DNA of 64,000 nt from an uncultured Monoglobus sp. (GTDB taxonomy: Bacteria; Bacillota; Clostridia; Monoglobales; Monoglobaceae): positions 62,001 to 126,000 of the forward strand of contig CANRBF010000005.1 of assembly GCA_947628795.1 (NCBI GenBank), given 5' to 3'. The notes beneath the pieces are model-generated. The model was not told the origin of the DNA and searched no databases. It saw only the letters and a list, made by a program, of their open reading frames with translations. The number at the start of each line of letters is the position of its first letter. Position 1 is the stretch's first letter. The position numbers and the translations under genes are program-made. Positions 9,571 through 46,602 of the stretch are shown piece after piece.

Positions 9571-10914
9571 ATGAATCAGGATTTCACGCGGGGCGCGATT
9601 TTAAGCAAGCTCATCGGGTTCGCTTTGCCAATGCTGCTGGTGCTGTTTTTGCAGGCTATGTACGGCGCGATAGATTTGTTTGTCGTGGGCAGGTTCGGAA
9701 TTTCCGCCGATGTTTCGGCGGTGTCCACCGGAAGCCAGATAATGCAGACGGTCACCTTCATGATCGAGGGTGTGTCGATGGGCATCACCGTTCTGGCGGG
9801 ACACAGGATAGGCGAGGGCAGCAACAAAGAAGCGGGACGCGTGATAGGCAGCGGCATAGCGCTGTTCGCCATGATCGCGATCGGCGCCACCGCCGTTATG
9901 CTCGCCTGCGCCCGTCCTTTGGCGGTGCTCATGCGGGCGCCCGAGGAGGCGTTCGGCAGGACCGTGACTTATATATTCATATGCTCCGCGGGAATGATAT
10001 TCATAGTGGCGTATAACCTGATCGGCAGCATATTCCGCGGCGTGGGAAACTCCCGCGTTCCGCTTATGACCGTGGCCATCGCCTGCGCGTTTAACATAAT
10101 CGGCGATCTGGTTTTCGTGGCGGGCTTCAAGCTGGGCGTCGCGGGCGCGGCTCTCGCGACCGTGATGGCGCAGGGCGTCAGCGTGCTGCTGTCGCTTATT
10201 ATAATAAAGCGCGTGAAAATGCCGTTCAGGCTCACCCGCCGCGACATACGCCTGCGCAAAAGAATAGTCAAGCGCATACTTTTTCTCGGTATTCCGATAG
10301 CGCTTCAGGACCTGCTCGTCAGCATATCTTTTCTGGTTATTCTGGCCATCGTCAATTCATTGGGCCTTGTGGCTTCGGCGGGAGTCGGCGTGGCCGAAAA
10401 GCTGTGCGCGTTCATCATGCTGGTGCCTTCGGCCTATATGCAGTCGATGTCCGCGTTTGTGGCGCAGAACATCGGCGCCGAGAGATACGACAGGGCAAAA
10501 AAAGCGCTGCTATGCGGCATATTATCGTCGCTGGCGGTGGGGGTTGTGATGTTCTACGTTTCGTTTTTTCAGGGTGATAAGCTTTCGACGATATTCACAA
10601 GCGACCCCGAGGTCATAGCGGCGGCCGCAAGTTATCTCAAGGCGTATGCTTTCGACTGCATACTGACGTCGTTCCTGTTCTGCTTCAGCGGATATTTCAA
10701 CGGCTGCGGAAAAACGATGTTCAACATGGCTCAGGGCGTGCTGGGCGCGTTCTGCGTGCGCATACCGGTTTCGTATTTCGTGAGCCGAATAGTGGGCGTG
10801 CCGCTTTTCTACATAGGTCTCGCCACGCCCTGCTCAACGATAGTGCAGATAATTCTGTGCCTGATATATTTCATGATAACCGAAAACAAAAGGCGCGTCG
10901 GGGCGCTTGAATAA
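9571..10914 (+). CDS. MATE-family efflux transporter
   Basis: 447 residues with twelve predicted membrane helices. The N-terminal segment GAILSKLIGFALPMLL and LFVVGRFG, plus the pseudo-repeat at about 230-250 (FLGIPIALQDLL), are typical of MATE (NorM/DinF-like) exporters that use a sodium or proton gradient. The substrate cannot be read. CGGAGG lies 5 bases before the ATG. It sits between the M15 peptidase (29-bp gap) and the esterase (10-bp gap), so it is probably in the same operon. Confidence 0.88.
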   Translation: MNQDFTRGAILSKLIGFALPMLLVLFLQAMYGAIDLFVVGRFGISADVSAVSTGSQIMQTVTFMIEGVSMGITVLAGHRIGEGSNKEAGRVIGSGIALFAMIAIGATAVMLACARPLAVLMRAPEEAFGRTVTYIFICSAGMIFIVAYNLIGSIFRGVGNSRVPLMTVAIACAFNIIGDLVFVAGFKLGVAGAALATVMAQGVSVLLSLIIIKRVKMPFRLTRRDIRLRKRIVKRILFLGIPIALQDLLVSISFLVILAIVNSLGLVASAGVGVAEKLCAFIMLVPSAYMQSMSAFVAQNIGAERYDRAKKALLCGILSSLAVGVVMFYVSFFQGDKLSTIFTSDPEVIAAAASYLKAYAFDCILTSFLFCFSGYFNGCGKTMFNMAQGVLGAFCVRIPVSYFVSRIVGVPLFYIGLATPCSTIVQIILCLIYFMITENKRRVGALE

Positions 10915-22265: not shown

Positions 22266-23120
22266 ATGCGCTTTGACGGAGAAATTACCCGAATAAAAGG
22301 TGAAACCTTTGACGAGGAGCGAGCCTTATACGGACTGCATAACGCGGAGATCGCGGACTCAAAATTCAGCGGCCCCGCGGACGGGGAATCGGCGCTCAAG
22401 GAGTGCGGGAACCTTGTCGCGCGAGGCTGCGATTTTCGGCTGCGCTATCCGCTTTGGCACGTGACAAACGCCGAGATCGACGGCTGCTCCATGGCGGACA
22501 CCTGCCGCGCGGCGCTCTGGTACGATAAAAATATATACATAACAAATTCAAAGCTGGGCGGCATCAAGGCTCTGCGCGAGTGCGATGACTCAACGCTCAA
22601 AAACTGCGATATAGATTCGGTCGAGTTCGGCTGGTTCTGCCGCGGTCTGAGTATCTCGGACTGCGAGTTAAATTCCGAGTACCCGTTTCTGCGCAGCCGC
22701 GATATGGAGATCAAAAACCTGACGATGACCGGCAAATACTCGTTTCAGTATGTGGAAAACGCGATGATCAGAAATTCGAATCTCAACACAAAGGACGCGT
22801 TCTGGCACAGCAAAAACGTCACGGTGTACGACAGCGTGATAGACGGCGAGTATCTCGCGTGGTACAGCGAGAACCTGCGCCTCGTGCGCTGCAAAATAAG
22901 CGGCACCCAGCCGCTGTGCTACGCCAAAGGCCTGATCCTTGAGGACTGCGAAATGTGGGACTGCGACCTGTCGTTTGAAAAGAGCGAGGTGACCGCCGAT
23001 GTGCGCGGTGAGATCACAAGCGTCAAGAACCCGCTGAGCGGCACCGTCACGGCCGACACCATAGGCGAGATAATCTTCGACGAGCCCTGGGCTAAGGGCA
23101 ACGTAGTGATTAGAGATTAG
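22266..23120 (+). CDS. DUF3737-family protein, predicted beta-helix
   Basis: 284 residues from the ATG at 22266, which lies 8 bases after AAAGGAG; a GTG at 22260 is too close to it. The sequence is a ladder of short strands such as VTNAEIDGCSM, LSISDCELNSEYPF and VRCKISGTQPLCYAKG, with a recurring pattern of (W/F)-x-x-(S/N/R) turns, as in right-handed beta-helices. It fits DUF3737, whose function is not established. There is no signal peptide, so it is cytoplasmic. Confidence 0.85.
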   Translation: MRFDGEITRIKGETFDEERALYGLHNAEIADSKFSGPADGESALKECGNLVARGCDFRLRYPLWHVTNAEIDGCSMADTCRAALWYDKNIYITNSKLGGIKALRECDDSTLKNCDIDSVEFGWFCRGLSISDCELNSEYPFLRSRDMEIKNLTMTGKYSFQYVENAMIRNSNLNTKDAFWHSKNVTVYDSVIDGEYLAWYSENLRLVRCKISGTQPLCYAKGLILEDCEMWDCDLSFEKSEVTADVRGEITSVKNPLSGTVTADTIGEIIFDEPWAKGNVVIRD

Positions 23121-23189
23121 CGAATAGCAAATAGGCCACCCCCTCAGTCGCTCCGCGACAGCTCCCCCTCCTTCGGAAGGGGAGCCTAA
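23104..23189. repeat. Heptad arm joined to hairpin repeat copy A
   Basis: Heptad units (GATTAGA, GATTAGC, GAATAGC, AAATAGG) begin after ACGTAG, overlapping the last codons of the DUF3737 gene. They run into an inverted copy of the hairpin repeat (CCCCTCAGTCGC...GCGACAGCTCCCC, then CCTTCGGAAGGGGAGCC). Confidence 0.6.
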
Positions 23190-23222: not shown

Positions 23223-23301
23223 ACTGTGGCCGGAGCCGCGTGGCGGATTCGTTTAATAAAAGTGTTCCGTTTGCAAACATAAACAAGGCCGTAGATTATT
23301 A
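23223..23301 (+). repeat. 80-bp element, arm 1 of an inverted pair
   Basis: Begins ACTGTGGCCGGAGCCGCG and contains GATTCGTTTA, TTCCGTTTGC and AAACAAGGCCG. The reverse complement of 23563-23645 matches it along its length with scattered substitutions (about four in five bases by eye). Confidence 0.6.
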
Positions 23302-23341
23302 ACGTGAGCGGACATGACGCGATAGCGGTGGAAGGGGCAGT

Positions 23342-23427
23342 TTGCCTCCTCCCGGGAGGAGGTGTCAGGCACAGCCTGACGGAGGTGGGAACATAGGAAT
23401 TAGTGATTAGCAAATAGTAATTAGGGC
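23342..23427 (+). repeat. Hairpin repeat copy B plus heptad arm
   Basis: GCCTCCTCCCGGGAGGAGG followed by a GTCAGG/CCTGAC hairpin and ACGGAGGTGGG, then ACATAG and heptads (AATTAGT, GATTAGC, AAATAGT, AATTAGG) at 23397-23427. Confidence 0.55.
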
Positions 23428-23562: not shown

Positions 23563-23645
23563 GATTTTATTATCTGCGGCCTTGTTTGTATCCGCAAACG
23601 AAATACTTTGGCTAAACGAACCCGCTTCGCGGCTCCGGCCACAGC
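23563..23645 (-). repeat. 80-bp element, arm 2 of an inverted pair
   Basis: Inverted partner of 23223-23301, ending GGCTCCGGCCACAGCC. The two arms enclose about 260 bp with hairpin repeat copy B and the orphan terminator. Confidence 0.6.
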
Positions 23646-23669
23646 CTGCCCGAAAGCCTCGCCCAACGT

Positions 23670-23884
23670 AGAGACTAGGAAATAGGATCTAGGGACTAGG
23701 ACGTGCGGCAGCCCGAAAGCCTCGCCCCTTGGGGATAATCAGCAAGCTTGCTTGCGGGTTCAAAGCGATCTTTCAAAATCGCTTGCGATTTTGACCAAGC
23801 GCTTCCTTAATGGTGGATTTCCGCCAACGGCGGAAAGACGGAGAGGGGTTAACGTAGGTAATAGGTATTAGTGACTAGGTACTA
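23670..23884. repeat. Heptad arms flanking an interrupted hairpin repeat
   Basis: Heptads at 23670-23700 (GACTAGG, AAATAGG, ATCTAGG, GACTAGG) follow AACGTAG. Hairpin repeat copy C is split: its GCCTCGCCCCTTGGGG half is at 23717-23734 and its TTTCCGCCAACGGCGGAAA half at 23818-23837, with about 80 bp of unrelated sequence between. Heptads at 23853-23884 again follow AACGTAG. Confidence 0.5.
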
Positions 23885-23913
23885 CGCTAATAATATTGTT
23901 TTTGAAAATTTCA

Positions 23914-23942
23914 TTGACCTTTTTGGAATAATATGATAGAAT
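23914..23942 (+). promoter_or_regulatory. Promoter of a probable small RNA
   Basis: TTGACC (23914-23919), 17-base spacer, TAGAAT (23937-23942); the start would fall near 23949, at the foot of the long hairpin. Confidence 0.65.
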
Positions 23943-23948
23943 ATATAT

Positions 23949-24100
23949 GCTACAAAGTTTAAAATTCTTGCAACAGTTTGCGTTGCTAAAAACGCGAGCT
24001 TTGCATTCATATCTGTTGTAGGAATGAACTTTGTAGCAAAAGTAGTCAAGGCTGCGTTTTTATTATTTGCGCGGTCGTGACTTCACACCGCGCAATTTTT
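23949..24100 (+). ncRNA. Probable structured small RNA (or leader) with own promoter and terminator
   Basis: Two stacked stems: TGCTACAAAGTT (23948-23959) pairs perfectly with AACTTTGTAGCA (24027-24038), and ATTCTTGCAACAG pairs with CTGTTGTAGGAAT over 13 bp with two G-U wobbles. The apical part holds a small GCGTT/AACGC hairpin. It ends in a terminator (TTGCGCGGT/ACCGCGCAA, 24067-24100, then T5). I do not recognise the family. The internal loop between the stems is too small for 6S RNA, and no T-box or known riboswitch motif is seen. It could be a free RNA or an attenuator ahead of the RCC1 gene. Confidence 0.55.
24067..24100 (+). terminator. Terminator of the probable small RNA
   Basis: Perfect 9-bp stem TTGCGCGGT/ACCGCGCAA and five T. 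Confidence 0.8.
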
Positions 24101-24158
24101 ATCGCAATAGCAGAAGTGTATTACGAAATATTCATTGCCGTAGGGCGGCAGTCCGAAA

Positions 24159-24287
24159 GCCTCGCCCCTTGGGGAGAGGTGGATTTCCGCCAACGGCGGA
24201 AAGACGGAGAGGGGTTTACCATGCGATTTGGAAACACAAACCCCTCTCAGTCACCTTCGGTGACAGCTCTCCCCAAGGGGCGAGCCT
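24159..24287. repeat. Inverted pair of hairpin repeats (copies D and E)
   Basis: Copy D (24159-24218): GCCTCGCCCCTTGGGGAG, then a TTTCCGCC/GGCGGAAA hairpin and GACGGAGAGGGG. Copy E (24239-24287) is inverted, with GTCACC/GGTGAC in the hairpin position and CTCCCCAAGGGGCGAGCC at the end. The pair would fold on itself and looks like a small inverted-repeat element. Confidence 0.65.
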
Positions 24288-24384: not shown

Positions 24385-25860
24385 ATGAAAAGGGTTTTAA
24401 GTTTAGCATTGATAACAGCTGTGATCGCGGCTTTGTTTCCGACAAATTTTGTTAATGCTTACGATATGGGCAAGGTCGGCGAGTGCCAAACAATTTCCGC
24501 GAGAGTGAGTTATATGGCAACAGTAAAAACGGATAACAGCCTTTGGACTTGGGGATGGAACAATTTCGGACAGCTTGGAGATGGCACTACCGAGGATAAA
24601 TCCACACCTGTAAAAATAATGGACAATGTCGCGGCAGTTTCCGCGGGAGATGACCATACGGCGGCAATAAAAAAAGACGGCAGCCTTTGGACTTGGGGAC
24701 GGAACATTTTCGGACAGCTTGGCGACGGCACTACGGCGTGGAAATCCACACCGGTAAAAATAATGGACAATGTCGCGGCAGTTTCTGCGGGAGATTATCA
24801 TACAGCGGCAATAAAAAAAGACAGCAGCCTTTGGACTTGGGGATATAACAGTCACGGACAGCTTGGCGACGGCACTACGGCGTGGAAATCCACACCGGTA
24901 AAAATAATGGACAATGTCGCGGCAGTTTCCGCGGGAGATTATCATACAGCGGCAATAAAAACAGACGGCAGCCTTTGGACTTGGGGATATAACAATCACG
25001 GACAGCTTGGCGACGGCACTACTGCGGATAAATACAGTCCGATAAAAATCATGGATAATGTAGCGGCGGTTTCCGCGGGAAATTGTCACACAGCGGCGAT
25101 AAAAACGGACGGCAGCCTTTGGATTTGGGGACGGAACATTTTCGGACAGCTTGGCGACGGCACTATGGATGACAAATCCACACCGGTAAAAATCATGGAC
25201 AATGTCGCGGCGGTTTCCGCGGGAGGCAGCCATACGGCGGCAATAAAAACAGACGGCAGCCTTTGGACTTGGGGATGGAACAATTTCGGACAGCTTGGCG
25301 ACGGCACTATGGACAGAGACGATCCATATGGCAAATCCACACCCATAAAAATCATGGACAATGTCGCGGCGGTTTCCGCGGGAAGTGGCCATACGGCGGC
25401 AATAAAAAAAGACGGCAGCCTTTGGACTTGGGGATATAACAGTCACGGACAGCTTGGAGACGGCACTACGGAAAATAGATCCACACCCGTAAAAATCATG
25501 GACGGCGTGCGTCTGCCGGGCGTCAATGTTGAACCGACACCATCCACTCCCGCGCTGTCCACTCCCGCTCCGTCGCCGATCGACAACTCTCCTTACATGA
25601 TCAACAGCGTCACACCGATGGACGGAGGCGTTGAAGTGAATGTGACAAATATTTCGGGAGGCGGAGCCAAGATCGTCGCTGCGTCTTACGGGAGTGACGG
25701 CGTTATCGTTGATGTGGCGCAAATAAATATTCTGCTCGCAGCCGGAGAAACGAGTAATATTAAACTGAGTCTTAATAACGCCGATCATATCAAAGCCTTC
25801 GTTTGGGACAGTTTTGACAATATGATGCCGCTGTCGGCGAGCGCCGAAATCAGCTTGTAA
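24385..25860 (+). CDS. Secreted RCC1-repeat (beta-propeller) protein
   Basis: 491 residues. A signal peptide (1 to about 26, [10 protein letters not shown]) is followed by seven RCC1/ATS1-type repeats of about 51 residues (about 45-385); each has SLWTWGxNxxGQLGDGT, [16 protein letters not shown] and HTAAIK. Seven repeats should close a seven-bladed propeller. A Ser/Pro/Thr linker leads to a C-terminal module (about 405-491) with [10 protein letters not shown] and [14 protein letters not shown], also present in three of the pectinases. The repeats are nearly identical in DNA (153-base period). Function unknown; a surface binding protein is likely. GGGAGGG precedes the ATG. Confidence 0.85.
24530..25510 (+). 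repeat. Seven tandem 153-base repeats in the RCC1 gene
   Basis: AGCCTTTGGACTTGGGGA recurs every 153 bases (for example 24537 and 24690), with long identical stretches between units. Recombination between units could change blade number. Confidence 0.8.
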
Positions 25861-46409: not shown

Positions 46410-46602
46410 GGCTGCCTCGCCCCTTGGGGAGAGGTGGCAGGCGAAGCCTGACGGAGAGGGGTAGAGATTAGGGACTAGGGACTAGGGCGGAATTCATCGA
46501 CATATTCCGCGCTACACGCCTAGTACCTAGAATCTATTACCTAGTTTCTACATTAACCCCTCTCAGTCTGCTTCGCAGACAGCTCCCCCAAAGGGGGAGC
46601 CT
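46410..46602. repeat. Composite palindromic element (hairpin repeats around a heptad palindrome)
   Basis: Copy F of the hairpin repeat (46414-46462, GCCTCGCCCCTTGGGGAG, then a GGCAGGC/GCCTGAC hairpin) leads into heptads (GATTAGG, GACTAGG, GACTAGG), a GCGGAAT/ATTCCGC core hairpin (46487-46510), inverted heptads (46519-46552) and the inverted copy G (46554-46602, GTCTGC/GCAGAC hairpin). The whole 190 bp is a nested inverted repeat between uxaA and the GH43 gene. Confidence 0.7.

Follow-up and report, generated by a model that had tools for sequence, protein, structure and literature searches.

Positions 23914 to 24100 of a 64,000-nucleotide stretch of DNA from an uncultured Monoglobus sp. (hereafter the window; contig CANRBF010000005.1 of assembly GCA_947628795.1) hold a real structured RNA, which belongs to a family of diverged copies and is, very probably, a cis-acting, transcription-attenuating leader of a new riboswitch-like class, a conclusion reached without expression data. 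Gut bacteria carry leaders of this family ahead of many genes for surface proteins and regulators, whose transcription the leaders probably control; transcription and switching both remain untested. A preliminary description, made from the nucleotide letters alone, had proposed either a free-standing RNA or an attenuator, and the attenuator (5' leader) option is favoured because terminator and antiterminator are mutually exclusive and covary and because copies lie directly before a ribosome-binding site (RBS) and start codon. A free-standing role for some copies is not excluded, since two loci in the window's own genome (L288 and L289) have no evident gene behind them. The multi-copy family, a pseudoknot and the antiterminator lay beyond what that description could see.

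Conserved structure of the RNA

The elements named in the preliminary description were all located (Table 1). Its promoter, TTGACC and TAGAAT separated by a 17-nt spacer, additionally carries a TG before the -10 box; promoter-like sites are not enriched in the surrounding 2-kb stretch (3 found against 2.5 expected from shuffles), and the window promoter alone therefore proves nothing. The two-part stem with its two G-U pairs resolves into P1 and P2 of 12 bp each around a 3-nt bulge, with both G-U pairs in P2 and a 13th, closing pair in P1 if 23948 is included. The terminator has the expected nine perfect pairs (24067-24075 with 24087-24095) followed by T5, and was not listed by a simple terminator scan, probably because the scan rule allows only loops of 3-8. 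The short transcript, put at about 152 bases by the earlier reading, is predicted to span 23949-24100 (152 nt), its 5' end on the first P1 base being inferred from the -10 box in the absence of transcript data. Positions 23947-24104 fold at -63.5 kcal/mol compared to -35.5 (sd 3.4) for shuffled sequences (z -8.1), and the reverse strand folds with z -4.2 (dinucleotide shuffles).

Table 1. Features of the leader RNA and its surroundings in the window; pairings and transcript end are predictions
Feature	Position	Strand	Remarks
Promoter	23914..23942	+	-35 TTGACC 23914-23919; extended -10 TAGAAT 23937-23942
P1, 5' arm	23949..23960	+	pairs with 24026-24037; covariation in family
Bulge P1/P2	23961..23963	+	3 nt; family consensus AAUA
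P2, 5' arm	23964..23975	+	pairs with 24014-24025
P3 apical hairpin	23976..23999	+	23976-23984 with 23991-23999; AAAA at tip
Strand A (GCTTTG)	23998..24003	+	putative pseudoknot partner of B; cognate A:B z -9.1
P2, 3' arm	24014..24025	+	
P1, 3' arm	24026..24037	+	
Strand B (AGTCAAGGCTGCG)	24044..24056	+	would pair with A via 24047-24052, or alternatively with 24070-24082 as antiterminator
U-run 3' of B	24057..24061	+	two U invariant in 102/102 family rows
Antiterminator hairpin, whole	24044..24082	+	-17.2 kcal/mol; predicted to exclude terminator; B:C z -15.3
Intrinsic terminator hairpin, arms C and D	24067..24095	+	-18.2 kcal/mol; C:D z -29.5
T5 tract	24096..24100	+	predicted 3' end of short transcript
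Palindromic dispersed repeat in the leader-RCC1 gap, outside RNA	24145..24287	.	
RCC1-repeat protein gene	24385..25860	+	491 aa; signal-peptide-like start

DNA searches of the window's genome and 40 relatives uncovered diverged copies with the same layout, fifteen of which were aligned and made into model R1; a further model, R2, comprises 102 copies. A homologue search with structure had been put forward as a check on the RNA, and it returned strong covariation: each of the 32 modelled pairs showed changes on both sides among the 101 distinct rows of alignment A6, 94.9% of cells were paired compared to 73.5% after shuffling and 25-53% after sliding, and both-side changes affected 624 cells compared to 145.5 after shuffling. 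Alignment A6 was fitted to the structure of R1, a bias in favour of that structure. Across the family P2 is highly variable in sequence and length, its arm reaching 38 nt in some copies. The unpaired AAUA following P1 is near-constant (81, 87, 84 and 88 of 102 rows), and AAAA stands at the tip of P3 in 98/98 ungapped rows; the conserved sensor domain expected of a riboswitch, with covarying helices and conserved unpaired bases, is present. A DNA element, such as a MITE- or REP-like repeat, might also appear as a long inverted repeat in many copies, and real palindromic repeats do lie nearby, but we give this reading almost no credence: the P1 arms are not terminal inverted repeats of one shared sequence but vary from copy to copy and covary, G-U pairs being common on the + strand, the + strand folds better than the reverse, and promoter and gene position are fixed.

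The absence of a known family, earlier judged by eye, was borne out by Rfam 15, in which no family matched the window at the curated score, and in which a search of 551 bases around the RNA at E ≤ 10 gave unrelated families only (best E 0.18). Among 20 further loci, the Rfam matches listed were one tRNA and one cobalamin riboswitch, both lying beyond the RNA, together with sub-threshold matches, none of them to the RNA. With no known class matched and the structure conserved in relatives, the RNA withstands the refuting condition set in the preliminary description. As far as the available portions of the open-licence literature go (PMC11109978, PMC8632094, PMC8040213, PMC10907184 and PMC9481103 included), no matching RNA is described, and an earlier unnamed listing remains possible: the portion of PMC8040213 that was accessible reports 3161 candidate structured RNAs from human microbiomes and no family matching the present leader, and its full list could include unnamed members.

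Competing pairings of strand B

Behind P1, strand B complements both strand A, on the 3' side of P3, and strand C, the 5' arm of the terminator. For every copy we set the duplex energy of its cognate strands against that of strands dealt among copies in 5000 shuffles, using 137 non-redundant copies, none of which had been obtained via the motif pattern; the 85% similarity cut removes the relatedness of copies only in part. Cognate strands did better than every one of the 5000 shuffles in the case of P1 (z -36.8), P2 (-49.9), P3 (-15.3) and C:D (-29.5), and likewise in the case of A:B (-9.1), the P3 3' strand with the B tail (-12.1) and B:C (-15.3). The control pairings gave z values of -2.0 for A:C (123 of 5000 shuffles as good), +1.2 for the P3 5' strand with the B tail and +0.1 for the P1 5' arm with B. 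Earlier runs that included pattern-derived loci (172 and 146 copies) were in agreement.

Judged from sequence comparison, then, covariation is seen in the predicted P1, P2, P3, terminator (C:D), antiterminator (B:C) and long-range A:B pairing, which continues into the 3' strand of P3, and B would be unable to pair with A and C simultaneously. Terminator and antiterminator share strand C and are thereby mutually exclusive, and their mean energies across the family are close (-13.9 and -13.7 kcal/mol, respectively), the antiterminator being the stronger in 64/137 copies. The extended A:B duplex of the window (23988-24005 with 24044-24061) is calculated at -17.6 kcal/mol. The same terminator/antiterminator layout would suit an attenuator that responds to ribosomes on a leader peptide, and an ATG-started frame does run over P1-P3 in the window, but its ATG (23947) lies upstream of the inferred transcription start, and an internal ORF of at least 8 codons with an RBS-like motif occurs in only 10/137 copies. 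The conserved short ORF with an RBS that such a mechanism demands is missing, and we regard the leader-peptide reading as largely refuted.

Distribution and gene context of the family

Model R1 matched 36/60 relatives (E ≤ 0.01) and, in a sample of the class Clostridia, 59/291 genomes from 18 families, the window's own included (E ≤ 1e-4). With R2, the window's genome yielded 18 copies (E ≤ 5.2e-7; the best remaining match had E 0.022), 8 of which had been missed by R1. In a phylum sample of 299 genomes (≥90% complete, E ≤ 1e-4) copies were found in the window's own genome only; ten listed genomes of the same class in that sample had none, indicating that the family is patchy even within its class. 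Only ten candidates were scored per genome in the class and phylum searches, and misses are thus possible. A degenerate-pattern scan of GTDB genomes gave at least 119 stretches, and the 80 matches listed comprise 77 with Clostridia-type titles, many of them MAGs from ruminant or rabbit guts, one 'uncultured bacterium' and two outsiders (Marinibacterium and Oxalobacteraceae). R1 confirmed 73 of 81 sources (the 80 listed matches plus a viral contig, L242) and failed for 8, both outsiders among them. The L242 copy (10498-10644 of an IMG/VR contig classed as viral) is genuine, with 88.9 bits, and precedes a lipoprotein-like gene; the contig is either a prophage or misclassified bacterial DNA.

A -10-like box precedes 135/137 copies, in 78 of them at the same 3-nt offset, a count made without a shuffled control. 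One promoter-and-spacer copy, at 1501-1533 of L006 (G000:C1), has no RNA behind it and is possibly a remnant. Complete units also follow one another in tandem; 18 pairs of neighbours are separated by 43-152 nt, and in those examined the units have a promoter-like box between them.

The gene context was scored in the 114 non-redundant copies that have sufficient downstream sequence and lack another copy within 250 nt. An RBS-preceded ORF start followed within 250 nt in 83/114 and within 40 nt in 58/114, compared to 14/54 and 0/54 in an antisense upstream control, and no called ORF start lay within 250 nt in 31/114. The copies thus occupy the sense-strand position in the 5' leaders of genes that an attenuator calls for. 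A free-standing, trans-acting small RNA, whose position before genes would be secondary, could claim the RNA's own promoter and terminator, the closely spaced complete tandem units and the two loci without an evident gene, but we consider it improbable in view of this tight sense-strand placement before RBS and start and of an antiterminator that covaries with the terminator, which would be useless in a free RNA.

The genes behind the attenuator are of many kinds. When ORFs were called more loosely, 146 copies yielded 112 of them, 75 at 40 nt or less, of which 33 show a crude signal-peptide-like start and 11 are small proteins of one look. These eleven small proteins begin like M-NY-x-LY-x-MFN and lie behind the RNA in several genomes (L065, L068, L073, L109, L111, L112, L120, L129, L182 and L199), and the two members scanned had no Pfam match. 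Among 96 downstream ORFs, Pfam assigned LRR_5 (BspA type) 17 times, MazE five, bPH_1 four and Cu_amine_oxidN1 and ABC_tran three times each (best 25 of 53 families), followed by a long tail; no defence or phage family dominates among the families listed, and a ToxN-type toxin, the expected neighbour of a type III toxin-antitoxin RNA (ToxI), is not found in these 96 ORFs among the best 25 of 53 Pfam and 25 of 57 PADLOC families.

Within the window's genome, five of the 18 copies precede five genes for AbrB/zinc-ribbon proteins, which are all five found at E ≤ 0.01, and eight precede genes judged by eye to be secreted or surface-exposed. L044 lies before a 68-aa ORF, L046, a near copy of the L044 leader, before a doubtful ORF, and L041 ends near a contig end. 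The AbrB/zinc-ribbon proteins are paralogues of about 79 aa, MazE/AbrB-like at the N-terminus and zinc-ribbon-like at the C-terminus (L283, L287, L045, L290 and L043 in this genome; L298-L324). Starting from the protein, the RNA was found 17-38 nt before the match in 28/28 same-genus loci examined and was absent at 4 loci from other genera; twelve further same-genus matches fall outside the 28, eight of them adjoining an R1 match. Several genomes (for example G012, G014, G019, G020 and G021) carry the RNA without any AbrB/zinc-ribbon match, so we rejected this protein as a general trans factor and regard it as a target in one genus. The same-genus genome G008, a single contig, has one copy, and the gene behind it looks by eye like one with a signal peptide.

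These observations bear on the possibility that the same attenuator is thrown by an RNA-binding protein, as in the case of antitermination proteins, and not by a small molecule. We doubt this but cannot dismiss it: no evidence separates a small molecule from a protein and the target genes name no metabolic pathway, whereas we found none that accompanies the RNA consistently, several RNA-carrying genomes have no match to the AbrB/zinc-ribbon protein, and the conservation of the P3/A positions is, in our opinion, like that of many aptamers.

The RCC1 gene, placed 285 bp downstream in the preliminary description, has its start codon at that distance from 24100 and is likely the original target of the window leader. 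Much of the gap is occupied by the dispersed palindromic repeat, so whether the leader still controls the gene is open. Four other same-genus genomes carry a leader with 87-97% identity along the part that aligns. RCC1-like genes that begin similarly lie 382 nt behind the L010 leader and 251 nt behind that of L012; L011 has a 198-aa ORF after 13 nt, and its RCC1-like gene comes after 606 nt. L019 has a gene at 16 nt (1681-2940) whose first 50 residues are 76% identical to the window protein and whose remainder is BspA-like, possibly through recombination or a domain swap behind the signal peptide. Near-identical leaders before different DNA raised the suspicion that the leader moves as a cassette to unrelated genes, which this set of loci fails to bear out: RCC1-like genes are present farther downstream in L010, L011 and L012. 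We infer that the tight layout of L019 is original and that the gaps elsewhere are later insertions. Several repeats were noted: the palindromic repeat has arms at 24158-24181 and 24264-24287 (92% complementary) and its unit recurs at 23723-23738 and 46418-46433, four intergenic AT-rich direct repeats with a TAGNNATTAG-like unit lie at 23111-23134, 23394-23417, 23669-23692 and 23862-23885, and a 79-nt inverted repeat (23224-23302 and 23566-23644, 81% complementary) has 263 nt between its arms.

Proposed switch and relation to known systems

In the mechanism that we propose, RNA polymerase would make P1-P2-P3 first. The emerging strand B could then pair back to A, with A serving as a toehold, which would leave C free, let the terminator form and turn the gene off, or it could pair forward with C, which would block the terminator and leave the gene on. 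The balance between the two pairings would be shifted by a signal that the apical P2/P3 core reads, a ligand step that is pure inference; the co-transcriptional choice by B, the control of the gene and the sensed signal are inferred as well. An OFF switch, in which the signal stabilizes A:B, is no more than a low-confidence guess from the near-invariance of the AAAA at the P3 tip and its U-run partner. The geometry poses a difficulty, as A is situated at the upper end of P1-P2 and B at its base, and their pairing needs a sharp bend, located perhaps at the AAUA bulge. Against the attenuator we also count the two copies in the window's genome without an evident gene and the one with a doubtful ORF, the 31/114 copies lacking a called ORF start nearby, the long P2 arms, the A:C control value and the incomplete removal of relatedness.

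The mixed targets (surface or secreted proteins, AbrB-type regulators and small proteins) point to a general signal, itself unknown, over the metabolite of a single pathway. We offer, tentatively and short of a firm preference, the reading that these RNAs of gut Clostridia form an orphan riboswitch class not described before, which responds to a general signalling compound, ligand binding being inferred. In some species the class would drive a regulon with about 20 leaders in each genome, made up of surface/LRR proteins, AbrB-type regulators and small proteins, through a toehold-type strand exchange in which one strand goes either to a pseudoknot with the sensor or to an antiterminator hairpin. 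If our interpretation is right, common gut Clostridia harbour a large class of gene-control RNAs that has so far escaped cataloguing, and one may ask what signal governs the joint expression of many surface and regulator genes. Well over 100 natural variants with covarying sensor pairing, antiterminator and terminator would be useful for the study of strand-exchange switches.

Terminator/antiterminator control in Firmicutes leaders is exercised by T-box leaders and by peptide attenuators. The present family differs from the former in lacking a T-box match in Rfam searches and from the latter in lacking a conserved leader peptide. Strand-exchange switches are described as much less understood than other groups in the part of PMC10907184 available to us, and the ZTP/ZMP riboswitch treated there resembles our family in that its sensor is pseudoknotted, it has a P3-type helix at the apex, and its intrinsic terminator competes through strand exchange. 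As far as that account extends, the difference is that the switching strand of the present family lies outside the main stem and would choose between sensor and antiterminator; the family moreover has no Rfam 15 riboswitch match and its ligand is unknown. Tandem riboswitches of one class, in the excerpted account of PMC9481103, likewise place complete sensor-plus-terminator units serially before one gene, whereas the tandem units examined here each have their own promoter-like box. The device, a strand-exchange attenuator, is thus of a known kind, and the family, its pairing scheme and its regulon appear to be new as far as tested.
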